From: a virus
Reading direction: 5' to 3' (one strand)
Length of the DNA stretch: 64,000 nt
IMG/VR virus record: IMGVR_UViG_3300017613_001944
Location: 18,212 to 82,211 of that record
The notes beneath the pieces were generated by a model. That model made no database searches. It saw nothing but the letters and a program-made list of their open reading frames with translations, and was not told the origin of the DNA. Both the position numbers and the translations under genes were made by a program. Positions 2,185 through 62,713 of this stretch are shown piece after piece. Numbering within the stretch: position 1 is the stretch's first letter; each line of letters begins with the position of its first letter.

Positions 2185-2239
2185 TGAGAAGTGATCGCCC
2201 AGGGTTTTTGCCCATTAAAGAAAAAGATCAAGGAAATAA

Positions 2240-6571: not shown

Positions 6572-6651
6572 GAGAGTATGAGTGAGTGGATCGTGCGGTA
6601 TTTTATCTAGTAGAGGAAAAGACTTTTCTGATAATTTTCAGGAGGGACAAA

Positions 6652-7062: not shown

Positions 7063-7071
7063 GAGGTCGGT

Positions 7072-8697: not shown

Positions 8698-8706
8698 GAG
8701 GGTTGT

Positions 8707-9090: not shown

Positions 9091-9103
9091 GGGAGGAATA
9101 AGT

Positions 9104-9670: not shown

Positions 9671-9682
9671 CAGGAGAGTTAA

Positions 9683-10465: not shown

Positions 10466-10477
10466 GGAGGATTAAGT

Positions 10478-11932: not shown

Positions 11933-11933
11933 T

Positions 11934-13156: not shown

Positions 13157-13168
13157 GAGGGATAGGTT

Positions 13169-14356: not shown

Positions 14357-14368
14357 GGGGTTAGAGAA

Positions 14369-14677: not shown

Positions 14678-14679
14678 TA

Positions 14680-15165
14680 ATGGCTATCAAAGTCGCGCCT
14701 ATCTTCTCGGAGCCGCTGTATCTCGGTGATCTGAGCGAAGAAGTGGCTAAGATGGAGAAGGATTGTGACCAAAACGACAGAGCATGGATAAAAGCACGGC
14801 AAGCGACAGAATCTGATGAGATGGAGATCAGTTCACTGTACTCTAAATCAAAGACTGTGTGGACTGGTGAGGCTACGGAACAGGTCCAAGAAATCAACCC
14901 CAGGGAACGGCAGGCCATGGAGATCTACCTGTGTATGGTAGACGCCGGTAACATTGACGATGAAGATGGCCCACTGTTCACCTTTGTAGAAAATGGACCT
15001 TACGCCAAAGTGGACGGAGGCTTCCAGATATTCAAGGAAGCATACGGAAGACTTCCATCCGAGGCCACATTAGCTATGTTGCGTGCCGTGTATACTGTTA
15101 ACCCCGGCTGGGGTTGGTGGTTGAGCCAAGAGAAATCGGAGGGGGAAGCGAAGACGGGGGAGTAA
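14680..15165 (+). CDS. Tail assembly chaperone (G-like)
   Basis: A 161-residue helical, acidic protein in the invariant position between tail tube and tape measure. In long-tailed phages this slot encodes the chaperone that coats the tape measure during tube assembly, extended by a ribosomal frameshift. Here the frame ends at 15165 while the -1 frame is open from 15102 to 15506, allowing a G/GT-type fusion. Confidence 0.7.
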   Translation: MAIKVAPIFSEPLYLGDLSEEVAKMEKDCDQNDRAWIKARQATESDEMEISSLYSKSKTVWTGEATEQVQEINPRERQAMEIYLCMVDAGNIDDEDGPLFTFVENGPYAKVDGGFQIFKEAYGRLPSEATLAMLRAVYTVNPGWGWWLSQEKSEGEAKTGE

Positions 15166-15506
15166 ACCCCCTTCTACAGCATCTCGATGTACTGGAGAAC
15201 GCAGTTCTTGAGTGGTTAGAGAGGAGCTTCTATGAGACGGCTGACCACGAGCTCCAGAAAGCTCTACGTAAACAAGCGCTGCTCCCAGTAAATATGCAAG
15301 CCGAAATGCCGGAGGCTTACCGCATCTGGCGTACCTGTCAAAGACATAGTGAGTTGTTCTGGCCTGGTGGTATAGCCAATCAACCGGCAACCCTTATGTT
15401 AGAGATGGAGGCTTGCGAGAGAGTTTCAAACCAGTTCCAGGATCAAATCAAGCGAATGTACGGCATTATCGAGGATAAAGGCAGTGGCGCTTCGCCCATC
15501 GGATAA
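15102..15506 (+). CDS. Frameshifted extension of tail chaperone (GT-like)
   Basis: This open stretch in the -1 frame relative to the 14680 gene starts just after a stop at 15099 and ends at 15506. It has no ATG near its start and no good ribosome site; TTG at 15114 is the only early candidate. The encoded part (NPLLQHLDVLENAVLEWLERSFYETADHELQKALRK) is helical and coding-like. The simplest reading is translation as a C-terminal extension of the chaperone by -1 frameshifting in 15138-15165. Confidence 0.6.
   Translation, partial: PRLGLVVEPREIGGGSEDGGVNPLLQHLDVLENAVLEWLERSFYETADHELQKALRKQALLPVNMQAEMPEAYRIWRTCQRHSELFWPGGIANQPATLMLEMEACERVSNQFQDQIKRMYGIIEDKGSGASPIG
15138..15171 (+). promoter_or_regulatory. 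Candidate -1 frameshift signal
   Basis: Within the overlap, a Shine-Dalgarno-like GGAGGGGGAA (15138-15147) is followed about 10 nt later by a GGGGGA slip site (15156-15161). A GGGGG/CCCCC hairpin (15156-15160 with 15167-15171) spans the zero-frame stop. An internal Shine-Dalgarno upstream of a slip site stimulates -1 shifts, as in dnaX. The heptamer is not a canonical X-XXY-YYZ, so the exact slip point is uncertain. Confidence 0.4.
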
Positions 15507-49980: not shown

Positions 49981-50009
49981 GGGGCAGTGGCCCCCATGAC
50001 CACTGCCCC
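49981..50009 (-). promoter_or_regulatory. Leader hairpin before membrane microproteins
   Basis: A perfect 10-bp stem (GGGGCAGTGG at 49981-49990, CCACTGCCCC at 50000-50009) ends about 10 nt before the ribosome site of the 49831 gene. There is no T run, so regulation of translation or RNA stability is more likely than termination. A second inverted repeat lies at 50023-50062. Confidence 0.55.
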
Positions 50010-50061
50010 GCTATTAAGTTGTACTCCCGACTCCCCGTGAACCGACCTAGCTTGTCGGGAG

Positions 50062-50090
50062 TGAATAGCAGTACCCGAAGGCACTGTCAA
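50062..50090 (-). promoter_or_regulatory. Promoter overlapped by inverted repeat
   Basis: TTGACA (50090-50085), 17-bp spacer, TATTCA (50067-50062) on the - strand. Its -10 to start region is one arm of a 9-bp inverted repeat (ACTCCCGAC at 50023-50031 with GTCGGGAGT at 50054-50062), flanked by GCTATT/AATAGC, which could be an operator. No TGTACA core here. Confidence 0.6.
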
Positions 50091-50121
50091 TTCCGTCTTA
50101 CTTGTTGTTGTCTGGCGTTCA

Positions 50122-50526
50122 TCAGAGCTCACTTCTGAGCTCATTCCAATCTATTTGCTGAGTCTCGTACTCGTGCGGATTGCCCTTTATCATTGCACGA
50201 AAGCTAAAGTACTCACTTGATATCTTTATGATCGAGTAGTCTGTATACAGCTCATGTGCATCCGGTGCCGGGTCTTCTAACATTATGTCCCATCCTGAAT
50301 CACTGTCCACAGACTCCTCAAGATCTTCAGGCATGTCATCGCAGAATACAGGCAAGCAATAGAAGTATTCTATACAGTAAAAGTCACCATCTGTATCTGC
50401 TAAGAACTTGACTAGGCCCATCTGTTTTTCTATCCAGTCTACTAGGCGATCTCCAATACAAAACTTGGCAAACCGTGGACCACCATCTGGCCCCCACACC
50501 CTTGTCACTACCCACTTATAACTCAT
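50122..50526 (-). CDS. Hypothetical acidic protein
   Basis: A 134-residue protein, ATG at 50526 overlapping the upstream TAA. Beta N-terminus (KWVVTRVWGPDGGPRFAKFCIGD), then a strongly acidic middle (DDMPEDLEESVDSDSG) and a beta end. Negative charge could mimic DNA; this is inference. Unrecognised. Confidence 0.5.
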   Translation of the reverse strand: MSYKWVVTRVWGPDGGPRFAKFCIGDRLVDWIEKQMGLVKFLADTDGDFYCIEYFYCLPVFCDDMPEDLEESVDSDSGWDIMLEDPAPDAHELYTDYSIIKISSEYFSFRAMIKGNPHEYETQQIDWNELRSEL

Positions 50527-50783
50527 TAGTGTGAACACTCCTCTCTATGACAGATGCTGCACCGATACCTGTATGAAATCACAGGCTCATCGGGTGAGCA
50601 GTCATCACAGGTAAACAGTGCTGGCTCAAAGCTATCGAACTTCTCACGGAACACCCATAACAGGACATAGAACTCTTTGCCACACACCTCGCAGGTGACA
50701 GGGACTTGCCCCACCTCTTCGTGGTCGTCAGGGTGATTATCATAATCTAGTTCTGCGTTGGATCTAGCTGACAGATATGACAT
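50526..50783 (-). CDS. Zinc-ribbon protein
   Basis: An 85-residue protein with two zinc sites: CEVCGKEF...CDDC (residues about 31-62) and CSICHREECSH at the C-terminus. ATG overlaps the upstream TGA. Probable protein or nucleic-acid adaptor; function unknown. Confidence 0.55.
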   Translation of the reverse strand: MSYLSARSNAELDYDNHPDDHEEVGQVPVTCEVCGKEFYVLLWVFREKFDSFEPALFTCDDCSPDEPVISYRYRCSICHREECSH

Positions 50784-50932
50784 CAGTCTTCCTCGTATGG
50801 ATCTTGTCCAGAGATTATCTTAGCCATAGCACGGAAGGCACCTGCCTCATTGTGCTGTCTGAAGGCTGCAAGCACCACTGTCACGACGAATCCGAACGCC
50901 AGTGAGAAGCCACACAACTCAATTGTCTTCAT
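50783..50932 (-). CDS. Membrane microprotein
   Basis: A 49-residue protein with one transmembrane helix (LCGFSLAFGFVVTVVLAAF) and a basic then acidic tail. AGAAAT precedes ATG; stop overlaps the next start (TGATG). Confidence 0.5.
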   Translation of the reverse strand: MKTIELCGFSLAFGFVVTVVLAAFRQHNEAGAFRAMAKIISGQDPYEED

Positions 50933-51143
50933 ATTTCTCCAGGCAGCTACTCAGTTCGTCTCTGAATGCCACTAGCACGTCTATGAACTCGGGGAGGATG
51001 TCGTGCCTGATCTTAAACTCTGATCCAGTGACACTTACTGTTATGTCTGTTGGCTTTCCATCAGTTACCACCGTCTCTGCCTTTATAGGTCTGCCCTCTG
51101 CGCCGACATAGACTGTCTCACTTATGATTCTTGTTACCTTCAT
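50919..51143 (-). CDS. Hypothetical small protein
   Basis: A 74-residue beta-rich protein (TRIISETVYVGAEGRPIKAETVVTDGKPTDITVSVTGSEFKIRHDI) with a C-terminal helix. ATG 51143 follows GGGAGAGAG. Unrecognised. Confidence 0.5.
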   Translation of the reverse strand: MKVTRIISETVYVGAEGRPIKAETVVTDGKPTDITVSVTGSEFKIRHDILPEFIDVLVAFRDELSSCLEKYEDN

Positions 51144-51154
51144 CTCTCTCCCTT

Positions 51155-51925
51155 CTAGTTGCACTCTAGGTGGATACTGTCCACAATGAAATCCTCATGC
51201 TTGAGAGGCCAGTTGGTCCTCACTTCCAGTATCCATATCACACTACCCACTGCTGGTACCTCTGGGCTCTCGACCCTGTACCATACCGGCTGTAGCCCAT
51301 TGCCGTAGCCCTCAGCCCACTCACCCCAGTTGACGTTATCATCTGGGGGATTGAGGAAGCCGTGATCTGATATGCCAATCCTCACGCGCATGTGAGAATC
51401 GAGCAAGGGTGTTTCACAGTCATCGCCTAGCGGCGGGGCAAAGGGTTTCTCTGAGCACTGAGAGAACCAGGATGAGAACTCTGCTGTTACTTTACAGGAC
51501 TTTGTAACTGCCAGCAGAGATTGCTCGGGGCCAAGTCTGATCCTTTGCATGATACCCGCTTGCTGACATCTCCAGAACGTGAACCAATGGAGGCTCCAGT
51601 CCCCGGTGAATACCCTCTCCTCCGCGCTCTCCCATTTCATCTCCGGCTGACCAGTGGACCACGGTGGACAGATGTTGTAGTTATCTGATATCCACCAGGC
51701 AGTGATCCCGTTGATGGGCCTCACCTCTTGGGGACATACCCAGTGCATCCCGAACTTATCCCAGTACTGGCAATTCCCTGGCTTGTCGTTGTTCTCTAGC
51801 TCCCCATTCAGGAGATAGGTAATGGTGGTCGGTGCCACAAAATACCCGTGCTCCTGAGTGTCGTCGGCAAACGATATACACATACCCGCCGCCAACAGTA
51901 TCAATACAGTCAAGACTATCTTCAT
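51155..51925 (-). CDS. Predicted secreted protein with Sec signal peptide
   Basis: A 256-residue protein, ATG 51925 behind AAAGGAGAC. Residues 1-20 (KIVLTVLILLAAGMCISFA) are a Sec signal peptide, with cleavage likely after SFA. The mature part has about 10 cysteines, fitting disulphides, and a Trp/Pro-rich beta sandwich (WSLHWFTFWRCQQAGIMQRIRL...HMRVRIGISDHGF) like carbohydrate-binding domains. A phage early-region protein exported from the cell could modify the surface or block superinfection; inference. Confidence 0.6.
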   Translation of the reverse strand: MKIVLTVLILLAAGMCISFADDTQEHGYFVAPTTITYLLNGELENNDKPGNCQYWDKFGMHWVCPQEVRPINGITAWWISDNYNICPPWSTGQPEMKWESAEERVFTGDWSLHWFTFWRCQQAGIMQRIRLGPEQSLLAVTKSCKVTAEFSSWFSQCSEKPFAPPLGDDCETPLLDSHMRVRIGISDHGFLNPPDDNVNWGEWAEGYGNGLQPVWYRVESPEVPAVGSVIWILEVRTNWPLKHEDFIVDSIHLECN

Positions 51926-51935
51926 AGTGTCTCCT

Positions 51936-52034
51936 TTACCAGCTTGGATGTTTCCTTGCACGCTTAACCACCTGGAGGATAACAAACACCGCCAGGGATA
52001 GTAAGCCCAATACCAGAATAAGATCAGTGTTCAT
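51936..52034 (-). CDS. Membrane microprotein
   Basis: A 32-residue peptide with one transmembrane helix (LILVLGLLSLAVFVILQVV) and a basic tail (KRARKHPSW). AAAGGGGTGC precedes the ATG, and its stop lies inside the next gene's AAAGGAG site. Confidence 0.5.
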   Translation of the reverse strand: MNTDLILVLGLLSLAVFVILQVVKRARKHPSW

Positions 52035-52047
52035 GAGCACCCCTTTC

Positions 52048-52218
52048 TTACCAGTGCATCTTAATCAGTGGCTTTTGTGTAGTATATCTGTACTCTCCCC
52101 AGAATGCGTTATACTGTTTGTCTTGGAGCCACCAGACTTCTAGCTTTTCCTTGTTCCATGTAAGCACGAAACGCCAGATCCGTTTTGTGCTGAACATCTC
52201 GATCCTGATCCCCGACAT
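52048..52218 (-). CDS. Small basic aromatic protein
   Basis: A 56-residue basic protein (IRIEMFSTKRIWRFVLTWNKEKLEVWWLQDKQYNAFWGEYRY), likely a small beta sheet. AAAGG precedes ATG 52218. Unrecognised. Confidence 0.45.
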   Translation of the reverse strand: MSGIRIEMFSTKRIWRFVLTWNKEKLEVWWLQDKQYNAFWGEYRYTTQKPLIKMHW

Positions 52219-52331
52219 AGTTGGCCTTTCTTACCAGATTCTAACCGGATCTCAATACTTCTTTTATAGCTTGGTGGTATACTGGAACTGGGAAAGGTGT
52301 AACCATCGCACATCACTCTTGACTAGCGCAC

Positions 52332-52610
52332 TCATTCTTCACCGCCGCCTGTTACATCTTTCTTCTTCAACTCATTCATATCGTTTATGGCACACTCCCA
52401 CGCTAATTGAGAGTCAAGTCCTGTTTTATGTGCTTCTGTATATCCATTGATAGCTGCCTGAACACACTCATCTATGATCTCGTTGCGGGAAATGTCAGCC
52501 TCAACAAATCCAATAGTCGGTTCACCCCACGCCCACTTCCATCTAAGAGCATAGACACCTAGATATTGGACTGACTCACCCTCTTCTAATTCTACTGCTC
52601 GGTAGTGCAT
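52332..52610 (-). CDS. Hypothetical protein
   Basis: A 92-residue acidic protein (NEIIDECVQAAINGYTEAHKTGLDSQLAWECAINDMNEL), mainly helical with a beta N-terminus. Overlaps upstream gene by 19 nt. Unrecognised. Confidence 0.5.
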   Translation of the reverse strand: MHYRAVELEEGESVQYLGVYALRWKWAWGEPTIGFVEADISRNEIIDECVQAAINGYTEAHKTGLDSQLAWECAINDMNELKKKDVTGGGEE

Positions 52611-52846
52611 TCATCCTCCCCGGCGCGGTTCTTGTCGATGGTGCGCTGGACTTGGTCCATTGCACATTCGAGCTTTGCTTCTGGCATGAGAGTAATTACT
52701 GCCTCAATTGATAATGTCAAGTCTCCACCAGCATACAGCCGTTTGAAGAAGTGCTGTTGCTTTTCCGTACACAACATCAATCCTTTCTTCAATTCGTGTC
52801 TTGCTGTTTGAGACGACTCGTCTTGTATCTCCCGATAGCTTTTCAC
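52592..52846 (-). CDS. Hypothetical helical protein
   Basis: An 84-residue charged helical protein (ARHELKKGLMLCTEKQQHFFKRLYAGG...AKLECAMDQVQRTIDKNRAGED). Ends overlap both neighbours by 4-19 nt. Unrecognised. Confidence 0.5.
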   Translation of the reverse strand: MKSYREIQDESSQTARHELKKGLMLCTEKQQHFFKRLYAGGDLTLSIEAVITLMPEAKLECAMDQVQRTIDKNRAGEDECTTEQ

Positions 52847-53130
52847 GTTACCTTCTCCGCCGTGCTGGCGTCGAGCGCGGCGTGGGCATTGCGATAAGCC
52901 TCACACCTGTCACAATCGCAATTTAGCTTTGGTTCGTGCATCCAGTCGATAGCATCGCGCAACGCCTCCCGCAGCGCATCGCGTTCGGCGCGGAGGGCGG
53001 CGTTATCTCTGCGGATATTGATATTTTCAACTCTCCATTCCTTAATGACAAAATCCGTAACATCTTGTAGGCACGACTTACACAATGGAATGCCTTCGCT
53101 TAATTCTATCTCGCACTTTTCGCAGTTCAT
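52843..53130 (-). CDS. Zinc-ribbon plus coiled-coil repeat protein
   Basis: A 95-residue protein: N-terminal ribbon (CEKCEIELSEGIPLCKSCL), a coiled coil containing ALRAERDALREA (residues about 46-57), then CDCDRCEAY and the end-motif AALDAS. The coiled-coil and end motifs recur in four neighbouring genes, with high-GC near-identical DNA. Confidence 0.55.
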   Translation of the reverse strand: MNCEKCEIELSEGIPLCKSCLQDVTDFVIKEWRVENINIRRDNAALRAERDALREALRDAIDWMHEPKLNCDCDRCEAYRNAHAALDASTAEKVT

Positions 53131-53135
53131 CCTCC

Positions 53136-53408
53136 CTACCTCCCATCCGTATCGCTGGCGTCGAGCGCGGCGCTCAGTTTGATTACAGCCGTAATAAATT
53201 GTTCATCATCCGAGCCGAGCCAGTCCATCACCTGCATCCTTAGCCGTATTGGGCCTTTGCTAATAGCAGCGATCACATCCTGTGCGGCATCCCGCAGCGC
53301 GTCGCGTTCGGCGCGGAGAGCAGCGCATTCAAAAACGAATGTCTCAAATATCTCTAGGCGTTCCTCATCTAAGCAGTTTGCTACCCTATCAAAACCTTTT
53401 TGGTCCAT
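53136..53408 (-). CDS. Coiled-coil repeat family protein
   Basis: A 90-residue protein starting at ATG 53408 behind GGTAGAGAG. ECAALRAERDALRDA and the C-terminal SAALDASD link it to its neighbours; the rest is helical. Function unknown. Confidence 0.5.
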   Translation of the reverse strand: MDQKGFDRVANCLDEERLEIFETFVFECAALRAERDALRDAAQDVIAAISKGPIRLRMQVMDWLGSDDEQFITAVIKLSAALDASDTDGR

Positions 53409-53412
53409 CTCT

Positions 53413-53625
53413 CTACCTCTCATCCACCACGCTCCACGCCCCGGCGTCATCGTCGCCACTCTTCACTACGTCCACGTCCCCCGCGTCGGCGTCTTCGCGC
53501 TGTCTGCGCCACATACGATACCGTATTAGAAGATTTCCCAACCAATAGCGGGGGCGATAGACATACCACCAGAATCGGTAGCGCCAGTCTTTCATCAGTT
53601 CGGCATGTAAGTCGCGATGTTTCAT
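53413..53625 (-). CDS. Basic small protein
   Basis: A 70-residue protein with a basic aromatic N-terminal half (DWRYRFWWYVYRPRYWLGNLLIRYRMWRRQ), possibly membrane-associated, and an acidic tail. Unrecognised. Confidence 0.45.
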   Translation of the reverse strand: MKHRDLHAELMKDWRYRFWWYVYRPRYWLGNLLIRYRMWRRQREDADAGDVDVVKSGDDDAGAWSVVDER

Positions 53626-53627
53626 TG

Positions 53628-53933
53628 CTACTCCTCCCCCGCGCCACTCTTCACTACGTTCGAGTGCTCCGTGGCGTCTTCGTCGTCATCTGATACTTCA
53701 AAATCTCCACTTATCCATTTTTCAAAAGCGTTTGCCAAGTCAGCGGCGGCACCTATGATAAAGTCGGTGTTATGAGGATCATGGCGTCTATGCCACGCCT
53801 TTTTTGCTTCACACTCTGCAAAACACTCAGACGTACGAGCGAGACAGTCTACACACTCAATCCACCACCACTTTTCTAGATGACGAATCTCTGCTTTTCC
53901 TCCACAAAATGGACAACTAGCTAACTCACTCAT
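53628..53933 (-). CDS. Lar-like restriction alleviation zinc-finger protein
   Basis: A 101-residue protein. MSELASCPFCGGKAEIR...WWIECVDCLARTSECFAECEAKKAWHRR follows the Lar pattern (LxxCPFCGG...VxCxxCxAxT...EAxxxWNxR). Lar modulates type I restriction in favour of unmethylated phage DNA; many phage members of the family are untested. ATG 53933 overlaps the upstream stop. Acidic C-terminal tail. Confidence 0.6.
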   Translation of the reverse strand: MSELASCPFCGGKAEIRHLEKWWWIECVDCLARTSECFAECEAKKAWHRRHDPHNTDFIIGAAADLANAFEKWISGDFEVSDDDEDATEHSNVVKSGAGEE

Positions 53934-54321
53934 ATTCTCCATCCTCCCCCGCCCCGCCGTCATCGTCGCTGGCGTTGAGCGCGGCGCTATTTATTTCCGC
54001 GATGGTAAGGACCACCACTTTTAGAGCCGACTCTGGTACAACGCCGCGCTCTATCAATTCGATCAATGTGGTTTTTGCCGCCTCACACGCCTCCCGCAGC
54101 GCATCGCGTTCGGCGCGGAGGGTGTTCGTTTCTTCTTCGTAGAAAATAACTGAGTTATCATTGGCTGGATGTAGCGGCGTGTCTAGCTCAAAATCGCCAA
54201 CCAACATCAATTCACCGCAACTGAGGCAGACACAATAAAGCAATCCACCATCGGCACTTTCGGCGTATCCAATAGCGTCTGCTGCATCACACTCTAAACA
54301 TTGGTAAACAAGGGTATCCAT
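53926..54321 (-). CDS. Zinc-ribbon plus coiled-coil repeat protein
   Basis: A 131-residue protein: YQCLECDAAD...CVCLSCGEL ribbon at the N-terminus, TLRAERDALREA at about residue 69, and AALNASDDD near the end. Same modules as the 52843 gene. Confidence 0.55.
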   Translation of the reverse strand: MDTLVYQCLECDAADAIGYAESADGGLLYCVCLSCGELMLVGDFELDTPLHPANDNSVIFYEEETNTLRAERDALREACEAAKTTLIELIERGVVPESALKVVVLTIAEINSAALNASDDDGGAGEDGEYE

Positions 54322-54323
54322 CT

Positions 54324-54701
54324 CTACCTTCCTTCGTCGCTGGCGTCGAGCGCGGATTTTGCCACGCCAAGCGCATCAAACAGCGGGATGTCACTGAGGT
54401 TTGTTTCGGGGTTTGCTGCAATATACAGTTCTTGCAGCGCTCCCCGCAGTGCGTCCTGCTCAACGACTGCCGCGTCACGTTCGGCGCGTAAATCTTTTAA
54501 TGCACCTGTTGTCATTATTCGCCAACCCTCAAAATCTTTATGGAATGCTGATAGTTGTGTGTCCAGGTGGTCATAGGCACGGTTTAGCTTTTCATTCTCT
54601 GATTGCAGCGCGTCACGTTCGGCGCGGAGGGCGTCGAGTTCTTCATGCCTCGCCTTGGTCACCATTATCAGATCGTCTGCCACACTTTTGTCAATTTTCA
54701 T
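54324..54701 (-). CDS. Long coiled-coil repeat protein
   Basis: A 125-residue protein with two copies of the module (DALRAERDALQS near residue 23, DLRAERDAAVVEQDALRGA near 72) within a continuous coiled coil, and the end-motif SALDASDEGR. Likely self-associates or binds its paralogues. Confidence 0.55.
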   Translation of the reverse strand: MKIDKSVADDLIMVTKARHEELDALRAERDALQSENEKLNRAYDHLDTQLSAFHKDFEGWRIMTTGALKDLRAERDAAVVEQDALRGALQELYIAANPETNLSDIPLFDALGVAKSALDASDEGR

Positions 54702-54757
54702 CTATCCTGCCTCCCATCCGTACATCCAGTTTATCTTTTCCAGCCTCACCTTGTCGA

Positions 54758-54961
54758 TCATCTGCGTAACCTTCCTATCAAGTATGGGGATGCTCCGATA
54801 AGGGCCAGTAAGGTAAGGGGCCACAACAGGGCTATCCCCGTCGATACTATTAGTGCTGTGATAACTTTCGTGGTGTTGCTGTCATGGATAGGGGCCAAGA
54901 GGTACATCCAAAGGCACACTGCTATGGGGTACCCCAAGATGTAGATCTGAAGCAGGTTCAT
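54758..54961 (-). CDS. Two-helix membrane protein behind switch-like leader
   Basis: A 67-residue protein with two hydrophobic helices (LLQIYILGYPIAVCLWMYLLA, residues 3-23, and VITALIVSTGIALLWPLTLLALIG, 33-56) and a basic tail. GGAGGAAG precedes ATG. The roughly 90-nt leader contains competing hairpins and an ACCTCCTTTCT tract. Function unknown; elaborate control suggests toxicity or a membrane role. Confidence 0.6.
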   Translation of the reverse strand: MNLLQIYILGYPIAVCLWMYLLAPIHDSNTTKVITALIVSTGIALLWPLTLLALIGASPYLIGRLRR

Positions 54962-54965
54962 TCTT

Positions 54966-55018
54966 CCTCCGCAAAGGGGCAGGAGATGCCCAGTCCCCTG
55001 CCCCCTTCAGAAAGGAGG
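54966..55018 (-). promoter_or_regulatory. Leader with mutually exclusive hairpins and anti-Shine-Dalgarno tract
   Basis: On the - strand transcript, CCTCCTT pairs with AAGGGGG (55018-55012 with 55007-55001) in one hairpin. Alternatively the same Gs join GGGGCAGG/CCTGCCCC (55004-54997 with 54983-54976). The CCTCC tract can also pair with the ribosome site GGAGG (54970-54966). This is the layout of a translational switch. Confidence 0.5.
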
Positions 55019-55057
55019 TACTACGGGACGTTACTAGAGATCCCCGAGCACATAGAA

Positions 55058-55086
55058 ATAATATCACACTTTGTACAGTGTGTCAA
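55058..55086 (-). promoter_or_regulatory. Promoter with TGTACA operator (membrane protein)
   Basis: TTGACA (55086-55081), 17-bp spacer, TATTAT (55063-55058) on the - strand. The spacer holds ACACT-GTACAA-AGTGT, an inverted repeat with the same ACTGTACA core as three other promoters, so a bound protein would block polymerase. The -35 overlaps the preceding gene's stop. Confidence 0.75.
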
Positions 55087-55205
55087 GCATAGATCTTACG
55101 ATCAATATGACCACACATATCACAGCAGTACCAACGATAGATGATGCCGTTCTCTTCGTCGGTTGCGTATGGTTTCATCTTGCATCCACACATTCTACAC
55201 TTCAT
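55083..55205 (-). CDS. Zinc-ribbon microprotein
   Basis: A 40-residue protein with CRMCGCKMKP...YCCDMCGHID, a complete zinc ribbon. GGAGGGGGTATC precedes ATG 55205, which overlaps the upstream stop. The longer frame from 55313 is rejected. Confidence 0.55.
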   Translation of the reverse strand: MKCRMCGCKMKPYATDEENGIIYRWYCCDMCGHIDRKIYA

Positions 55206-55444
55206 GATACCCCCTCCATCCATCGCCCAAAGATTATCAGTCCCTTGGCGACAAGAAAAGATATGATTACAAACCACACCAGGACAGCCATAACCTGCCA
55301 CGCAGCACACCATGAATCTGCGGCGGGTTTTATTGAACCCCGGTGTTGTCTGATTAGTTGGACTGTGCCATAGATCACCCCAATTACTGCACCGATGAGT
55401 AGCGTTCCAACAAGGCCAGTAAAGAGAGCGTCGATGTCTGTCAT
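55202..55444 (-). CDS. Two-helix membrane protein
   Basis: An 80-residue protein with two transmembrane helices (LFTGLVGTLLIGAVIGVIYGTV and WQVMAVLVWFVIISFLVAKGLIIF). ATG 55444 behind GGAGGTTTATC. It is the first gene after the large-RNA terminator, so it depends on read-through or an unseen promoter. A frame extending it to 55726 crosses that terminator and is rejected. Confidence 0.55.
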   Translation of the reverse strand: MTDIDALFTGLVGTLLIGAVIGVIYGTVQLIRQHRGSIKPAADSWCAAWQVMAVLVWFVIISFLVAKGLIIFGRWMEGVS

Positions 55445-55456
55445 GATAAACCTCCT

Positions 55457-55489
55457 ATAAAAACAAAAGACCCTGCAAATGCAGAGTCT
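55457..55489 (-). terminator. Rho-independent terminator of the large RNA
   Basis: On the - strand AGACTCTGCA (55489-55480) pairs with TGCAGGGTCT (55477-55468, one G-T pair), followed by TTTTGTTTTT (to 55457). It lies 12 nt upstream of the 55202 gene's ribosome site and ends the long non-coding stretch. Confidence 0.85.
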
Positions 55490-56366
55490 TGTTTGATCCT
55501 TAGTTAGACTTCCTTTGGATCTGCCTAGAGCTTTTGCCCCCGTACCCGTTGATTGCGAGTCTTCGGTTAAGGGCTTATCCGGTAGTCTTACGACCACCAC
55601 CCCGGCACAACCGCCTTTTAGTTTACGGGTCTGGCGTTCGACCCATGCAGCAGGTTTACTCCACACTCTAGCGCACTCTTGCCCTGGCCTGGGAAAGATG
55701 ATTGCCTCGGCATGAACCCCCATCAACCTTGCGGGTATCAGGGGACCCAGATTCGCAATGCGTCTGGGCTTAGGTTATTTTTCTACCTGCCCTGGAGTCA
55801 GTCTTTGCATTTTACAGTACGATCCATATTCGTATGCTTGATTGCTCAAGCGATGCAACCAACAGCGACGTGCTGACCCCAGTGGTGGCGTGACTGTCTC
55901 CAGCCACGATATGCCACACGCCACTTGTGTTTCGGGGGAGCTACCCCTACCGCACCGTCCTTCGCGATCCCTGGCCTGGGCCAAGATCCACTTGAACTGC
56001 TACCCGCCCTCACCCGCTACGGCTTGGACTAAATAACTACCCTTTGGTGTACCTCTTCGCAGTTTGCTAGGTAATCTCTCCTGCCGGAGAGAAAAGCCCC
56101 TTACAGTGTTACCCTCGGGAGCCCTGTCCCATCTGCTTCAGAGTTAGCTTCTCCCCGGAGGAGAAGCCAAGCACCTCAGCTTGCCTGAGTGGACCACTTT
56201 CGTGGTGACGGTATGTTGGCTTTCCGTCTTTGGGCAACTTACGTTGCTTATCCTCAAGGATGTCAGGCCACCCTGTGTACTACCTATTCAATTATTAAAG
56301 ATTCCTGGGCTAAGAGATCGACCAGTTACCTTATCTCTTAGCCCACTTGCAAAGTGGTCCTCTACG
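55457..56366 (-). ncRNA. Large structured non-coding RNA (about 0.9 kb)
   Basis: Between a strong promoter (56372-56400) and an intrinsic terminator (55457-55489), about 900 nt hold no credible gene but many stable hairpins. Examples on the - strand: GGGCTAAGAGAT/ATCTCTTAGCCC (12 bp, starting near 56344), GCTTCTCC/GGAGAAGC (near 56170), TCTCTCC/GGAGAGA (near 56095) and GTGGCGTG/CACGCCAC (near 55930). Size, single-unit transcription and phage setting fit the giant ornate RNAs GOLLD and ROOL, which are known from phages and prophages and assemble into cages. I cannot confirm either by sequence; it could be a new class. No rRNA, tmRNA, RNase P or intron signature was recognised. Confidence 0.7.
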
Positions 56367-56371
56367 CGACT

Positions 56372-56400
56372 ATCTTATCACACTATGTACAGTGTGTCAA
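56372..56400 (-). promoter_or_regulatory. Promoter with TGTACA operator (large RNA)
   Basis: TTGACA (56400-56395), 17-bp spacer, TAAGAT (56377-56372) on the - strand. The spacer ACACT-GTACAT-AGTGT is nearly identical to that of the 55058 promoter. Start predicted near 56366. A shared regulator is likely. Confidence 0.8.
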
Positions 56401-57046
56401 GCCGTGCTGAACTTTGCCGTACTTCACATCACCGTTGCAATGTGTCACGGTTCTCAGCTTTGCCATCGCTCGACTTCACACCGAACCGCCGCGCCCATCC
56501 ACTGCGTGACCCAGCTGCACTCAGTATTGCCCTTGCTTGGCTTTACTTGACTTGGCTTCGCCCTTGCTATGCTCTGCGGTACTGCGCTCGGCAGTGCCTT
56601 TGCACTACTTCACACGGATGAATCACGCCCTTGCATAACTGCGCCCCACCCGGATGAGCAACGCCGTCGCCTCGCTTTACTCAGTGTTACTATGCCAAGC
56701 CGTTGCCACGCCTCACCGAGTATTATGGCGCTAGGCCCTTGCTATACGCAGCCCTGCCACACACCGTGCCGCGCCACCATCGCACTGCTCCACTCCACAC
56801 TACCAGGCCATTGCTGTGCCGTGCCACGCCTGATTGTGCACTGCCATTGCTACACTTAGCACCACGCGACGGCACCTCGCCATTGCTGGACTCCGTGGTG
56901 CAACACCCCGCCATTGCTGCGCGGCACTTTGCCTTACCATCGCTTCACGCCACTAAGCGCAGCTATGCCATCGCTCTACATAGCTTGGTGGAGCTATGCA
57001 ATACCACTGCCGTGCGTCACCCTGCGGCACCTCGTGGGGCTAGGCC
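56401..57046. repeat. Degenerate pentanucleotide-repeat tract, no gene
   Basis: About 645 bp between a gene stop and the large-RNA promoter. Much of it reads as 5-base units of form NN(G/A)C(T/C) on the + strand: GGCTT-TACTT-GACTT-GGCTT at 56539-56558, then in register TTGCT-ATGCT-CTGCG-GTACT (56564-56583), with repeated GCCATTGCT and GCCATCGCT later. Frames that read through encode only repetitive Ala/Leu/His/Arg peptides and are artefacts. No promoter, terminator or gene is visible inside. Function unknown. Confidence 0.7.
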
Positions 57047-57637
57047 CTAGCTTAGTTCCTCTAGAGTGTACGTGAAGCTTCCCCATCCACCATTCCGCCA
57101 CTGACCCAGACCACGCAACTCGCCATAGTACAGCCACTCTGTTAGCAGAGATTCATCCACCACACCCAGGATACTCACCTTAAACTCCAGCGTCGTACCT
57201 GGAGGACAAGTGTGTGAGTGCGCCAGTGCCACTCGGGGACCCCGTGGCGTGTCGATCCTAATGGGACGCTCATTGGTACCCATCTCAGAGCCGTTGAGAT
57301 TCAGTAAGATCTTGCGTGGTGCTATGAATACCACACCATCAACCACCTTCTTGTAAGCCGTGAGCTTCGATGACTTTGTGCCAGCACAACGTCGTAGCAT
57401 GCCACAGGCGTCTTTGAAGAAACCCTTGATAACATAGTCATATAGGAATGGTGTGCCATCAACCATATGAAAGCCAGTCCACCCCTTGTCTAGATTCTCT
57501 GGTACTGTCTCGAGCTCTCCTTCTAGCTGCTCCTCTGGGAGATCGTTCCCAATGTGGGCTTTGTAGATGTCCTTATCGGGAACAGTTCCTAGAATCTCTG
57601 TTGTAAGCATTAACTTCACATTGTACTCGTCCATCAT
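57047..57637 (-). CDS. Conserved phage hypothetical protein
   Basis: A 196-residue protein. Internal stretches (FLYDYVIKGFFKDACGMLRR, VFIAPRKI, IDTPRGPRVALAHSHTCPPGT, GLGQWRNGGWGSFTY) are of a type I recall from many unrelated phage genomes. The ferredoxin-like beta pattern and Gly-rich end recall RAMP-fold RNA-binding proteins, but that is inference. Tandem ATGs at 57637/57634. Last gene before the repeat tract. Confidence 0.65.
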   Translation of the reverse strand: MMDEYNVKLMLTTEILGTVPDKDIYKAHIGNDLPEEQLEGELETVPENLDKGWTGFHMVDGTPFLYDYVIKGFFKDACGMLRRCAGTKSSKLTAYKKVVDGVVFIAPRKILLNLNGSEMGTNERPIRIDTPRGPRVALAHSHTCPPGTTLEFKVSILGVVDESLLTEWLYYGELRGLGQWRNGGWGSFTYTLEELS

Positions 57638-57643
57638 TCCTCC

Positions 57644-57805
57644 TTACTGTAAATGTTGCTGGTCCATAACTGCCAGCAGAGAATAATCTTTCGAGAAGAT
57701 CATCAGTTCATCCACGTCCCCGCCGGAGGCGACAAGAGCCAGATACTCCTCTAGCGTGAGCTCAGTTTTCACGGCGATGGTCTCCGGCAATTTCTCTTCA
57801 CTCAT
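57644..57805 (-). CDS. Small hypothetical protein
   Basis: A 53-residue acidic protein (AVKTELTLEEYLALVASGGDVDELMIFSKDYSLLAVMDQ). Its VASGGD codons are a copy of the small hairpin repeat found between genes elsewhere. ATG overlaps the upstream stop. Confidence 0.5.
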   Translation of the reverse strand: MSEEKLPETIAVKTELTLEEYLALVASGGDVDELMIFSKDYSLLAVMDQQHLQ

Positions 57806-58194
57806 GGAAACACTCTCCTTACAAGCGTGATGTCATCACACAGCACAGTTCCCGCAGGTACAGGCCATGTCATCCCCTCATTCTCTCCCGCTTCCCAGAA
57901 ATACATGATATTTCTCATCGACGTGACCAGTGAGGGGATTCGTGTCTCCCTATCAGTGCGTTGACATTGGGTTGTTTCGGCTTCCCACACCTGTGTTGGT
58001 CTGACTATATCATTGATAAACTCTGCTGCACACCAACGATGCTCGAATGCAAAGAGCTTTCCGACCTTGGGTACAACCATCTCCCCCGGTACATACTCTA
58101 CCTCAAGATCCTTTGTATGTACGGTAGCTCCGGCTTGAGCCGAGACTAGCTTGCCGTTGAAGGTGCGATGTACCACTTTATATATCGTTGTCAT
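57802..58194 (-). CDS. Hypothetical protein
   Basis: A 130-residue beta-rich protein (VYKVV-type start, then VEYVPGEMVVPKVGKLFAFEHRWCAAEFI) seen in phage genomes as small conserved proteins of unknown role. Overlaps its neighbours by 4 and 17 nt. Confidence 0.55.
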   Translation of the reverse strand: MTTIYKVVHRTFNGKLVSAQAGATVHTKDLEVEYVPGEMVVPKVGKLFAFEHRWCAAEFINDIVRPTQVWEAETTQCQRTDRETRIPSLVTSMRNIMYFWEAGENEGMTWPVPAGTVLCDDITLVRRVFP

Positions 58195-58423
58195 CTTCCA
58201 CCTTTGGCTTAACTATCATCTCCAGATCAGCAGAGCCTGGGTTTACTGCTACAATGCTACCCTCAATGGCCCACTCGCCTTGCTCAACATTAACGTAGTC
58301 CATGGCCTCAATGTACCACATATCTCCAGTGTCTGATGGCGTGTGTAATACCTTTCCATAGATACGGCTACTGTCAGTCCATATCACAAATACAATGTCG
58401 CCTATCTTGATTGGTCTAGTCAC
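58178..58423 (-). CDS. Hypothetical protein, SH3-like
   Basis: An 81-residue beta protein with GTG start (KIGDIVFVIWTDSSRIYGKVLHTPSDTGDMWYIEAMD), patterned like a small SH3/Tudor barrel. Function unknown. Confidence 0.5.
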   Translation of the reverse strand: MTRPIKIGDIVFVIWTDSSRIYGKVLHTPSDTGDMWYIEAMDYVNVEQGEWAIEGSIVAVNPGSADLEMIVKPKVEDDNDI

Positions 58424-58703
58424 TCTCCACCTCCCTGGCCTCCATCACATCCACCCATCTACCCTCATACATCTCATAGGGTACCTCCATGGCGTGTTCA
58501 CAACTAATGGCATCCACCACCATGACAGTGTTCGTGTCCTCAAGCCAGAACTGTACTCTATACTTGTGGGTCTTCAGGATAGCACACCCCTCTAGTAGCT
58601 GTGTTATTTCTGTAATGGTTTGGGGTGCCAGGTGCTCTTCGCTGTCGTCCCACTCCTGCCAGAAGTAATCAATCTTCTTCTGTATCTGTGCTTTGATGTC
58701 CAT
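58416..58703 (-). CDS. Hypothetical protein
   Basis: A 95-residue protein: N-terminal helix (IQKKIDYFWQEWDDSEEHL) and C-terminal beta sheet (YRVQFWLEDTNTVMVVDAISCEHAMEVPYEMYEGRW). Overlaps both neighbours. Confidence 0.5.
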   Translation of the reverse strand: MDIKAQIQKKIDYFWQEWDDSEEHLAPQTITEITQLLEGCAILKTHKYRVQFWLEDTNTVMVVDAISCEHAMEVPYEMYEGRWVDVMEAREVESD

Positions 58704-58920
58704 GTAGAATCCTCTCTGCCTCTATAACGGCAAGTTTCCTTGAGGCACCATCATACATCTCTTTCCCATACTCGTACACAAACGCCATCATGATGGACTC
58801 TGTGCCTAGCATCACGCTTGCCGCTAGGACGCACACCACATTAGCAACATCTGGGTACTCTGGCCTGAGCTCCTCACCCAAGTCTGCAAGTCTCTCAGCT
58901 AACCGCTCTCTCTCATCCAT
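58669..58920 (-). CDS. Helical protein, paralogue of the 58913 gene
   Basis: An 83-residue helical protein. LAERLADLGEELRPEYPDVANVVCVLAASVMLGTESIM matches the 58913 product (LARRIGEFGDEVADEYEDVARVMGLLAASTALELESVM) along its length: a tandem duplication. Function unknown. Confidence 0.55.
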   Translation of the reverse strand: MDERERLAERLADLGEELRPEYPDVANVVCVLAASVMLGTESIMMAFVYEYGKEMYDGASRKLAVIEAERILHGHQSTDTEED

Positions 58921-59122
58921 CAGATTCCTCTTTCGCAGCCGTTATCCCTGCGACAAGCATCTCTGCTAGCGGAGTCAGGATATCAACCATAACACTCTCT
59001 AGCTCAAGTGCGGTACTGGCAGCAAGCAAGCCCATCACCCGTGCCACATCTTCATACTCATCTGCTACCTCATCACCGAACTCGCCTATCCTCCGCGCAA
59101 GTTTGAACCTATCTGTGGTCAT
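58913..59122 (-). CDS. Helical protein, paralogue of the 58669 gene
   Basis: A 69-residue helical protein, first in its - strand run, with AAGGAGGTAGC before ATG. It shares (L/V)xxLAAS...ESVM with the next gene. Divergent from the + strand gene at 59167; 44 bp separate the starts. Confidence 0.55.
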   Translation of the reverse strand: MTTDRFKLARRIGEFGDEVADEYEDVARVMGLLAASTALELESVMVDILTPLAEMLVAGITAAKEESDG

Positions 59123-59131
59123 GCTACCTCC

Positions 59132-59160
59132 TTGACATCTGCGTGCAAATAGATTATAAC
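59132..59160 (+). promoter_or_regulatory. Sigma70 promoter for isolated + strand gene
   Basis: TTGACA (59132-59137), 17-bp spacer, TATAAC (59155-59160). The predicted start falls on or beside the ATG at 59167, implying a leaderless message; no Shine-Dalgarno lies before that ATG. Confidence 0.6.
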
Positions 59161-59166
59161 TACATT

Positions 59167-59832
59167 ATGGATACTTCTGATACCCCTACCACACTGGAAA
59201 AAACTGGACCCATCCCTGCCAAGCTGAAAGATGGCTTCTTGGTGGCGCTGACTGCCAGATATGGCAATGGTCTACGCATCAATCAAGCCTTCGAGCTACC
59301 CGACACTCCCGATAGGACCACATACTACCGCTATCTCAAGAGTCATGCTGATGAGATGCACCTCATTGATAGTGAGGCGAGAGAGACGGCGATGTATGGG
59401 CAGTCGGGTGAGCAGATGTCCTTTGACGCCGAGCAGTTCCTTGTCTCAACAGAGCTACAGCGTCTCGCTCGAGATAGTCTGGCCCCCATCATTGAGCACA
59501 TGGCAGAGCTAGCACAGGGCCTGCCCTACACTATGGGCTCTGGTGATAACGAACGCCAGGTTACTCCTCATCCCCGTGACAGAGTTGACGCCGCCAAGGT
59601 GGTCGTGATGATTGCCAAGGAGGGCGTGATGAACGGTGTTCAGGCTTGGACCAGGGGCATGGAGAGAGCAATCTCTGCTGGCAGAGCTTCTGGTAAGATA
59701 GAGCAGAAGTCACTACTCCCCATGCTTGGTGTATCACCTGACTTCTCCAGGGTTGAAGCCACCAAACCCGACGGCACTAAACTCATAGCTGCCGTCGAGT
59801 ATGGTGCTGATGTCATCGACTCAGAAGATTAG
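59167..59832 (+). CDS. Helix-turn-helix protein, possible small terminase
   Basis: A 221-residue protein and the only + strand gene in the right half. RINQAFELPDTPDRTTYYRYLKSHADEM resembles the N-terminal helix-turn-helix of phage small terminases, which recognise packaging sites, followed by helical oligomerisation-like segments (RVDAAKVVVMIAKEGVMNGVQAWTRG). A transcription or replication regulator is equally possible. A GTG at 59143 lies inside the promoter and is rejected. Ends overlap the SSB gene by 4 nt tail to tail. Confidence 0.5.
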   Translation: MDTSDTPTTLEKTGPIPAKLKDGFLVALTARYGNGLRINQAFELPDTPDRTTYYRYLKSHADEMHLIDSEARETAMYGQSGEQMSFDAEQFLVSTELQRLARDSLAPIIEHMAELAQGLPYTMGSGDNERQVTPHPRDRVDAAKVVVMIAKEGVMNGVQAWTRGMERAISAGRASGKIEQKSLLPMLGVSPDFSRVEATKPDGTKLIAAVEYGADVIDSED

Positions 59833-60233
59833 AATGGGATCGAATCACCGTCATCGTCCTGAGCTGGGGCATCGCCGTCTTGACGACCACCCAAGAACAG
59901 AACGTTCCGAGCACGAAGCTCAAACGACGCGCCGTAGGTGCCATCGCTCTTCTTGTAGACCTTGGGACCACCATTCTCGGGATCGTGGACAAGCGTGCCG
60001 ACGACCTGCACCTGACGACCCTTCGACAGGTACTGATTAGCAGCCTCTCCCTGGGGACCCCACACTGAGACACGGAACCACTTGACTGACTCCCTGGTCT
60101 CGCCGTCCTGGGTCTTCCACTTGTTATTGACAGCCACCGACAGGTTAGTCACTGGCGTACCGTCCTGGGTGTACCGCATCTCGGGATCACGACCTAGGTT
60201 ACCAACAATAATCATTTGTTCAAAACCAGACAT
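59829..60233 (-). CDS. ssb: Single-stranded DNA-binding protein
   Basis: A 134-residue OB-fold SSB: GFEQMIIVGNLGRDPEMRYTQDGTPVTNLSVAVN, then VKWFRVSVWGPQGEAANQYLSKGRQVQVVGTLV, and the acidic C-terminal tip DDDGDSIPF that recruits partner proteins. Full family features are present. It would coat phage single strands during replication and work with RecA/Sak4. GGAGGATATAAA precedes the ATG. Confidence 0.93.
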   Translation of the reverse strand: MSGFEQMIIVGNLGRDPEMRYTQDGTPVTNLSVAVNNKWKTQDGETRESVKWFRVSVWGPQGEAANQYLSKGRQVQVVGTLVHDPENGGPKVYKKSDGTYGASFELRARNVLFLGGRQDGDAPAQDDDGDSIPF

Positions 60234-60285
60234 TTTATATCCTCCTGGATATGTGTGATATGGAACCGAATATTTTATCTTTCAC

Positions 60286-60309
60286 AAAAACCCCCGCCGG
60301 AGGCGACAA
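60286..60309 (-). terminator. Hairpin repeat with T run (copy 3)
   Basis: On the - strand TTGTCGCC-TCC-GGCGGGGG-TTTTT: a GC hairpin followed by five Ts between the 60320 gene and ssb, so likely a weak intrinsic terminator. Same hairpin as at 41363, 57718 and 62737. Confidence 0.55.
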
Positions 60310-60319
60310 AGATAGAAAG

Positions 60320-60604
60320 CTATCTCAAGCGGGAAACAATTCTCTCGAGAATACCCTTTGTCGGTGGTGCAGCCACCGACTCTTCCTTCAATACCTTACC
60401 TCCCTCGTCATTGATACTGGCAACAAGAGCCTCTCTTCCCTGCTCTTTATAGAAATCGGCTATTCTCTTCGCAGACTCCTTTGAGTTGATGAGGGTTATT
60501 CTTGGAGAGCCAAAGGATGTGAGCCCTGGTTCTGCGCCTACTCCCACGCTCTTAAACACTTTGTAACTCCCGTCCTGTGTCTGGATGACTACGATATACT
60601 TCAT
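60320..60604 (-). CDS. Hypothetical protein
   Basis: A 94-residue protein from ATG 60604, which overlaps the upstream stop. Beta N-terminus (KYIVVIQTQDGSYKVFKSVGVG), then helices (SKESAKRIADFYKEQGREALVASI). Unrecognised. Confidence 0.5.
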   Translation of the reverse strand: MKYIVVIQTQDGSYKVFKSVGVGAEPGLTSFGSPRITLINSKESAKRIADFYKEQGREALVASINDEGGKVLKEESVAAPPTKGILERIVSRLR

Positions 60605-61068
60605 CCCTCTCTCTCCTTGATGATAATCTCTGAACACACATCCACTACCGACTCACTCTTGAGTGAGCGGTTGGCGTAATGGCGATGGAGCTCCTTGCCC
60701 TCCTCGCTAGTAATCAGGTAGCCGTGGATTACCTTGGTGTGCCTATCTCCTCGGATGCTATGGTGATGGAATTGATATAGCCACACTGGTCGGTAGTGTG
60801 CTAGCTTCTTTACCTTGGCACTCACCTCTATGGGGATGTCGTTCTGATAGGGCAGTCCATCCCACCATCCAAGATCCCACTCTCGGTGTTGTCCTGGCTC
60901 CACTGCGATGATCCCCATGTTGGGGGTGATGTCGATGTACGCTCTGACATGACGCCCATACATAGTGGGTGCAGAGATGTTACCGTATGTGATGATACTG
61001 GTTTGCTTATTGAATGTCTTGTGCTCAGTCACCACTATCATGTCACCATTCTTGTCATATTTTGTCAT
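60601..61068 (-). CDS. Hypothetical protein
   Basis: A 155-residue beta-rich protein (MIVVTEHKTFNKQTSIITYGNISAPTM...WDLGWWDGLPYQNDIPIEVSAKVK), His/Trp-rich. Coupled by 4-nt overlaps to both neighbours. Function unknown. Confidence 0.5.
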   Translation of the reverse strand: MTKYDKNGDMIVVTEHKTFNKQTSIITYGNISAPTMYGRHVRAYIDITPNMGIIAVEPGQHREWDLGWWDGLPYQNDIPIEVSAKVKKLAHYRPVWLYQFHHHSIRGDRHTKVIHGYLITSEEGKELHRHYANRSLKSESVVDVCSEIIIKEREG

Positions 61069-61451
61069 TTCGTGTCATCTCCCAGTAATCTTCTCAGTCC
61101 AGCATCACGCTCACCCATGTCGTAGCCGATGCAGGCCATCATCCCAAGCAGACCCATTAATCCGTCTGCTCTTACACTTGCGGGGGCCTTGCCATCACTC
61201 AGCACGATATCTATCGCTGCCGACAGTATCATTCTAAACGTGCTAGTTTCTATTCTTACTGTGCGGTAGCGCTCAGTATTAATCTTATCTTCAATAGCGA
61301 CTATATCCATACTTATTGCCGACATACCCAACAGGGCATCGAATACTGGTGCGATTTCCTCTTTGGTAATTTTACCTGAGTCAATACCCTCCAGTATCTC
61401 GCTAATGGGTGCCTCTTCCACTTCTTTTGTAACCAGCTCTAACAGATCCAT
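61065..61451 (-). CDS. Helical hypothetical protein
   Basis: A 128-residue helical protein (SEILEGIDSGKITKEEIAPVFDALLGMSAISMDIVAIEDKI) with Met-rich hydrophobic helices near the C-terminus. ATGA-type overlaps on both sides. Unrecognised. Confidence 0.5.
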   Translation of the reverse strand: MDLLELVTKEVEEAPISEILEGIDSGKITKEEIAPVFDALLGMSAISMDIVAIEDKINTERYRTVRIETSTFRMILSAAIDIVLSDGKAPASVRADGLMGLLGMMACIGYDMGERDAGLRRLLGDDTK

Positions 61452-62713
61452 TATTGTGCTACTCCTCTCGTATCGAATGCCTCTTGCACCTGCTCACGCA
61501 CCCTTGGCTCCGCAAGGATTGCCTTGGGCATTTGAGCGCCCAGTTTACCAAGGTACTCCCAACTGAAGAACCTGCCGTTGTCATTGCTAATCCCAGCGGG
61601 ACCTATGGTCCTGACCCTCAAGCGACCAAGGCGATTACGCTTGGACTTGGACTTGGTATCGCTCTTGCGATACGCCTCCCATCCAGCCGTGGTGCACTGA
61701 CCAAGCGGCTCCCTGCTTTCCAGGAACCTACCACCCTTGATGAAATCCTGATCGTTCTTGGGATTCCATTTGGGGTGCTCTGGTGGCAGACAGATCATGT
61801 TAGCCAGAGTATCAGTGTCCTCTTGCGTGCCCTCAAACTCTATCGCCGGGATCTCTTCTGTGTCCCTATCCTCCAGGTAGTAGGCCACGTCCTCATCAAG
61901 CAGGTTAAAGTCAAACGCCTGGAAGCACAGTGCCTCTATCATCTTGGGGTTTGGATTCCACTCTTTGAGATGGCTTGTCATACAGGCCAGCTCTACATCC
62001 ATTAAACCCTCACCGGCTTTCTTTAAATGGGCGACGGCAACTGCCCACTTGTCGAGATTCTTGGCGACGTAGGCAAAGACACCCGAGTTCATCTTGCACG
62101 CTGCCTTGTATGCTAGATCGTAGTCAAGGTCGGGTGTCTTGTAGATAGGGGTGTACTCATCGTACTCACCCTCTGCCACCGGCTTATCGAAGGAGAGATA
62201 CCCTGCTCCCCCGGCGCTAGCTTTCAGTGCTTGCTCACGCTGGGCAAGGTTGGGATAGGCACTCTCTATGGACTGTTCAACAGCGGTGTCTGGATTGATC
62301 TCAAAGACAGTCATCGCCTCGGGGTGGAACTCATCAAGAGTTACTTCCCACTCCCATAGAGCACGCTGGATCTCCTGCGCCCTCTCGTTATCATCCTCAT
62401 CAATCGCATCCATCATAGCGTTGATGGCTAGCTCTTCGAGATACACACCACCATCACGGTAGTGATCGAGTGCTGCCTCGATCCCCTCAAGCACGGTGAT
62501 GTCCTCATACTGACTCTCGTTCCAGCCGATGCGACCAAACTCCCGGAAGGCATCGCGAATGGCGCGTGCCACATCTCTGCCGTGCTTGCCATCGTGCATG
62601 GCCTCAACAGCACGAACCATAGCGAGAGACACAGCATCCTGTGCCTCATTACCGAAGCTCCAGGCATCTACCATTCGAGTGAGACTTTTCCTAAGTGTGA
62701 TCCAGCTATTCAT
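61451..62713 (-). CDS. Large hypothetical helical protein
   Basis: A 420-residue mainly helical, acidic protein; ATG 62713 is chosen because AAAGGAGA lies 5 nt upstream. Middle segment (YKAACKMNSGVFAYVAKNLDKWAVAVAHLKKAGEG) resembles helical repeats; the C-terminal 110 residues are basic (KSDTKSKSKRNRLGRLRVRTIG). No catalytic motif recognised. Confidence 0.55.
   Translation of the reverse strand: MNSWITLRKSLTRMVDAWSFGNEAQDAVSLAMVRAVEAMHDGKHGRDVARAIRDAFREFGRIGWNESQYEDITVLEGIEAALDHYRDGGVYLEELAINAMMDAIDEDDNERAQEIQRALWEWEVTLDEFHPEAMTVFEINPDTAVEQSIESAYPNLAQREQALKASAGGAGYLSFDKPVAEGEYDEYTPIYKTPDLDYDLAYKAACKMNSGVFAYVAKNLDKWAVAVAHLKKAGEGLMDVELACMTSHLKEWNPNPKMIEALCFQAFDFNLLDEDVAYYLEDRDTEEIPAIEFEGTQEDTDTLANMICLPPEHPKWNPKNDQDFIKGGRFLESREPLGQCTTAGWEAYRKSDTKSKSKRNRLGRLRVRTIGPAGISNDNGRFFSWEYLGKLGAQMPKAILAEPRVREQVQEAFDTRGVAQ

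Follow-up and report, generated by a model that had tools for sequence, protein, structure and literature searches.

The solved GOLLD RNA env-38 forms a closed D7 cage of 14 chains with its linker pointing inside (PMC12286853). This cage assembles without protein, and its half-shells meet via the self-kissing loops L21a and L21b; the L21a loop is palindromic and forms the inter-half-shell bridge B8, and the other self-kissing bridge is B9 (PMC12286853). The 5′ and 3′ domains of env-38 measure 420 and 413 nt, respectively, and the 5′ domain caps the half-shell (PMC12286853). ROOL is an RNA cage as well, built as an octamer (PMC12286853). Earlier work on one L. brevis prophage, as cited in PMC7567579, reports that the GOLLD RNA accumulates there in lytic growth and is dispensable for phage production.

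Here we describe a phage locus that, judging from covariance models and sequence comparison, is almost certainly a GOLLD RNA with both domains. It is a divergent member of an already known family, and this member is new.

An RNA gene in an uncultured phage record

The whole stretch of DNA that was analysed, hereafter the window, is 64,000 nt long and corresponds to positions 18212-82211 of an 82,211-bp uncultured virus record (IMGVR_UViG_3300017613_001944). Coordinates refer to the window unless stated otherwise. The record is that of an uncultured tailed phage, and its phage genes include TerL, DnaB helicase, SSB, and a UvsX-like protein. Neither the major capsid candidate nor TerL matched annotated phages, and these searches gave no indication of the host. 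In the structural-gene block, a DnaQ-type exonuclease domain (Pfam RNase_T, E = 5.8e-23) is found at the N terminus of a 2415-aa protein (15484-22731, plus strand) that, from its position and size, is probably the tape measure. To the left of the window (record positions 1-18300), genes for UDP-glucose dehydrogenase, an epimerase, glycosyltransferases, and methyltransferases lie beside TerL, and a role of these sugar-nucleotide genes in phage or host surface modification is possible. On the minus strand at 52843-54701, several adjacent small proteins have a common coiled-coil motif like ALRAERDALREA, and some carry zinc-finger-like Cys motifs; they are a local family of duplicated genes.

An earlier note on this DNA had proposed a giant structured RNA of about 900 nt, without a plausible gene, at positions 55457-56366. 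These coordinates proved accurate, and the strand, which had been left unstated, is the minus strand. The RNA gene runs from ~56365 to 55467, with a predicted transcript of ~890-900 nt when the start is placed ~7 nt after the -10 element. In agreement with a structured RNA, the minus strand of the region folded to -357.3 kcal/mol compared to a mean of -308.5 kcal/mol for shuffled sequences (z = -5.6), and none of the 20 shuffles was as low. The plus strand likewise had a low folding energy (z = -3.8), which is expected because the region has inverted repeats.

Short open reading frames (ORFs) are present in several frames within the region, as might be found in coding or regulatory intergenic DNA without any RNA gene. 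However, none of them is plausible as a gene inside the ~890-nt RNA, as the earlier note had held, and no Pfam family was found at E ≤ 1 for the ORFs inside the RNA region, the one weak match being outside the RNA. The covariance evidence presented below is that of an RNA on one strand and refutes the reading as coding or intergenic DNA, to which we assign virtually no probability. The sole plausible gene that touches the region is an 80-aa membrane-type ORF (55202..55444, minus strand), which starts at 55444, ~22 nt past the terminator stem, and has its own AGGAGG upstream; no Pfam or PHROG family was found for it. This ORF lies outside the RNA and is probably reached only via read-through or another start.

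The 3′ domain

The published GOLLD survey accepted Rfam-profile matches at E < 1e-5 (PMC12286853). On the minus strand of the window, 55500..55926 matched the whole RF02032 model (1-416/416), which describes the 3′ domain only, with 96.8 bits and E = 1.2e-25. This match, the only one for GOLLD in the 82-kb record, clears the survey's limit by 20 orders of magnitude. At the curated gathering cut-off, Rfam reported nothing for the whole window, and the match appears under relaxed (E-value) reporting. The gathering score of RF02032, 150 bits, is a reporting threshold and not a biological feature, and two other plain GOLLDs likewise stay under it, at 149.1 bits. The RNA is like ROOL in size class and phage location, but none of the ROOL models matched the window even at E ≤ 10, and neither did the OLE and HEARO models, which had also been suggested for the search; the initial preference for GOLLD over ROOL was therefore justified.

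Out of the 98 base pairs of RF02032, 91 could be scored in the window, and 80 of these were standard, including 43 with both bases unlike the consensus, counts that lean in favour of the structure since the alignment was fitted to it; the E-value is independent of them. When residues were shuffled among the paired positions, standard pairs averaged 36.8 and reached a maximum of 51. Among the 11 broken pairs, three belong to a P22-like helix and one to the last helix. The last loop of the RNA reads GGAAGUCUAAC, where GOLLDs usually have GUAAUCUCAGC, and the closest form is that of mycobacteriophages, CAAGUCUACG.

The 5′ domain and the connector

The 5′ domain (55927..56365, minus strand), in GOLLDs the less conserved of the two domains, spans 439 nt, and its assignment draws on module models, pair support, and sequence similarity. 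The perfect 12-bp stem that had been noticed before is real and is located near the 5′ end (56307..56344, minus strand; z = -4.2), where the arms GGGCUAAGAGAU and AUCUCUUAGCCC, at 56307-56318 and 56333-56344, enclose a 14-nt loop.

Known GOLLDs contain a conserved multibranch module in this domain. It opens with an outer 6-bp helix and a strand whose last bases are AUAAG, continues with a GNRA hairpin, (G)AAAG, and a second hairpin, and, after a single purine, has a third hairpin, 4-5 nt, the closing helix, and AA. In the window (56180..56269, minus strand; fold z = -4.7), AUAAG follows the outer 6-bp helix, AAAG separates a GNRA hairpin from the second hairpin, and another GNRA hairpin precedes the closing helix and AA. 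Two covariance models of the module, restricted to a 78-position part of the 5′ domain, were built with the window left out, R1 from five modules and R2 from 15 known GOLLDs. In the 64-kb window, R1 gave a single match, 56269..56180(-), with E = 0.01, and R2 gave one significant match at the same position with E = 1.9e-5, followed by one at E = 4.4, these E-values being rough due to a short calibration. The distance from this match to the 3′ domain downstream is ~250 nt, and both its strand and its place are the right ones. Over 13 sequences including the window, 98.1% of the module cells were paired versus 29-42% with the partners slid, and 16 of the 20 module pairs showed changes on both sides in an alignment fitted to this structure. 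Conserved pairs, whose absence the earlier note had regarded as contrary evidence, were thus found in both domains.

As a reciprocal test, a pattern derived from the module of the window was used to search IMG/VR and pulled out 32 stretches. Full-length GOLLD 3′ domains, scoring 149-203 bits, were found in 12 of the 31 new records, and a thirteenth match, of 22 bits, was disregarded as too weak. In BLASTN comparisons with 34 GOLLDs, the 5′ domain reached 44.0 bits and the 3′ domain 42.5 bits, and both domains beat all of their 200 dinucleotide shuffles, none of which exceeded 29.7 bits. The best 5′ stretch falls within the module that had supplied the search pattern for those loci; positions 327-378 of the 5′ domain, outside this module, gave 39.7 bits to two of them (L163 and L169). 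Between the domains there is a connector of the form GUAG-hairpin-CGAAA (55927..55951, minus strand), which was read directly from the sequences: GGUAG GGG-UAGCU-CCC CCGAAACAC in the window and GAGUAG CC-CGCAA-GG CGAAAGAC in other GOLLDs.

DNA-level searches of the phage collection gave no match for the RNA, nor for a 24-kb part of the window. The former result and the empty one at the Rfam curated threshold would suit a large phage RNA of a new class, distinct from GOLLD, a possibility raised in the earlier note. The match to the whole GOLLD model, the 5′-module match, and the reciprocal retrieval of GOLLD loci exclude such a class, and we give it hardly any chance.

Transcription signals

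The promoter of the RNA gene, TTGACA-17-TAAGAT with a TG before the -10 (56372..56400, minus strand), starts with TTGACA at 56400 and ends with TAAGAT at 56372. It has 10/12 consensus matches. The region is not enriched in promoter-like sites taken as a class (15, with 12.0 expected), and the promoter claim therefore rests on its quality and on a near-identical second copy. Only two of the promoter-like sites in 50000-62000 have an exact TTGACA, the promoter at 56400 and its twin at 55086, and the second promoter/operator copy (55058..55086, minus strand) is identical to that of the GOLLD promoter at 26/27 nt. The spacer of the promoter is filled by an operator-like palindrome, CACACTGTACATAGTGTG (56379..56396, minus strand), present in exactly 2 copies in the window where 0.06 are expected (≤3 mismatches). 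The 82-kb record contains no further copy with <4 mismatches, and IMG/VR gave no match to the operator pattern. The copy at 55058..55086 is probably a co-regulated promoter, and this second cassette apparently drives the block of small genes downstream. Together, the twin cassettes (55058-55086 and 56372-56400) suggest a small regulon, in which a phage regulator would bind both palindromes. A LexA box in the promoter was also considered and dropped, as there was no fit to the LexA consensus. At the other end of the RNA gene, a strong intrinsic terminator (55467..55490, minus strand) consists of a 10-bp stem, 55490..55467(-), followed by the T-rich tail TTGTTTTTAT.

Upstream of the promoter, 56410-57046 is non-coding and shows a strong 5-nt periodicity, with an autocorrelation of 0.386 at period 5; the best 400-nt windows reach 0.39, compared to 0.334 at the next-best unrelated site of the record. 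The stretch contains recurring degenerate words such as GCCATTGCT, and no similar DNA was found in the phage collection.

Self-complementary loop and linker

In the 3′ domain, the P21a hairpin (55682..55693, minus strand), CCC-AGGCCA-GGG, has a self-complementary loop; this L21a loop, AGGCCA, at 55685-55690, was assigned by hand from the alignment. The P21b hairpin is missing in the window RNA, with 19 model positions deleted. The GOLLD of mycobacteriophage Weiss13 (KT591076) likewise lacks P21b and shares with the window RNA the 5′-module outer helix, GCCUGA/UCAGGC, and the L21a loop, which it carries on a different stem (GGGG-AGGCCA-CCCC). Weiss13 further differs in its score, 187.6 bits, and in having a tRNA-like linker.

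Most GOLLD loci examined carry tRNAs in or beside the RNA. The variable linker of the window RNA (55814..55864, minus strand; ~51 nt) has two small hairpins, one of which has a 7-nt loop, and ARAGORN found no tRNA in it or anywhere in the 82-kb record. A tRNA remnant in the linker was rejected, as there is no T-arm, the ARAGORN search was empty, and the fold was no better than that of shuffles. Caging the tRNA of its own linker can therefore not be a universal function of GOLLD, nor can this RNA depend on caging a tRNA encoded by its own record. At other loci, DSS3_MAL1 (2570-3507) has a permuted phage tmRNA directly after its GOLLD, and a tmRNA is also located near the GOLLD of L125; these tmRNAs may hint at a translation-related role.

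Divergence and nearest relatives

With 96.8 bits, the window RNA is the lowest-scoring of the 54 full-length GOLLDs examined, the other 53 having 149-287 bits. These comprise the references LR745206 (287), Javan565 (256), Acinetobacter phage Herod (225), Weiss13 (188), and DSS3_MAL1 (160), and IMG/VR sets of 17 contigs (159-277), 19 more (192-266), and 12 more (149-203), of which the 17 and 19 contigs were collected with a pattern favouring typical members, so that low-scoring GOLLDs may be underrepresented. A second 3′ pattern retrieved only one GOLLD contig, which was among those already found.

The low score, and a P22-like helix that is mostly mispaired in the Rfam alignment, could be signs of a decaying GOLLD, in which the family signature is left and folding or assembly is lost. 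However, the fold offers the P22 region other local pairings, and the 3′ pairs that changed on both sides have retained pairing. Moreover, the 5′ module is fully closed, promoter and terminator are intact, and the palindromic L21a loop has been kept even though its stem differs from that of Weiss13. Decay is therefore quite improbable, and the locus is very likely a divergent, apparently intact GOLLD gene, with its own promoter, a two-domain fold, and, by homology, a cage. In common with the family (RF02032) are the whole 3′ model, the 5′ module, the connector, a variable linker, the palindromic L21a loop, a length of ~0.9 kb, and the phage location, whereas the lower score, the lack of a tRNA in linker and record, the absent P21b, and the altered last loop set the window RNA apart from other GOLLDs.

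The best matches at the sequence level were the GOLLDs of the uncultured phages L163 (IMGVR_UViG_3300028948_000703) and L164 (IMGVR_UViG_3300009709_000002), which are collinear with the window RNA over parts of both domains and 59-72% identical in the aligned parts; both were found with the window-derived pattern, and the likeness inside that pattern is partly selected. Searches for relatives via a 420-aa neighbour protein and TerL found none, and a 196-aa neighbour protein led to 32 loci, none of which has a GOLLD by Rfam or by the 5′ model. Comparison of the window proteins with the GOLLD-bearing loci tested gave a single weak match, for SSB. Since the window proteins are otherwise not shared and relatives of the adjacent gene are without GOLLD, the data fit transfer of GOLLD between unrelated phages, or its patchy loss.

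Proposed assembly and implications

Based on these data, the RNA would be transcribed from the minus strand by its own promoter, probably under control of a phage regulator at the spacer palindrome, and transcription would end at the intrinsic terminator ~890 nt downstream. The covariance models show that the fold of the transcript comprises a 5′ cap domain, the conserved 3′ domain, and a variable linker. By homology with env-38, assembly into a cage is likely: the many copies made in infection would form a protein-free closed 14-mer with the linker inside, and self-complementary loops, among them L21a (AGGCCA in this RNA), would join the two half-shells. Cargo holding, ribosome binding, or another activity may be the role of such a cage for the phage. 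That it is the standard 14-mer we consider probable, with less confidence than the identity of the gene.

A GOLLD descendant with a like fold may also have a stoichiometry or cargo mode other than that of the 14-mer. P21b is missing, which rules out B9 in the form seen in the solved structure, and the linker has no tRNA. However, the absence of P21b is not special, as Weiss13 is also without it, and one symmetric bridge (L21a, B8) is kept, and we judge such a variant assembly to be rather unlikely. A broader version, which draws on the missing P21b, the altered P22 and L27, and the tRNA-free linker, would make the RNA an outlying GOLLD branch with a cage unlike the 14-mer, switched by a regulator via the shared palindromic promoter as part of a small regulon; this we regard as equally doubtful. 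The standard 14-mer thus remains our preferred reading.

The 5′ module occurs in GOLLDs of streptococcal, mycobacteriophage, marine-phage (DSS3_MAL1), and environmental origin, and can be used to find or confirm divergent members, real GOLLDs being missed by the Rfam curated threshold. The presence of a GOLLD in a tRNA-free phage record argues against tRNA caging as a universal role. That so divergent a member has kept its core pairs and one inter-subunit loop helps to define the features under selection.
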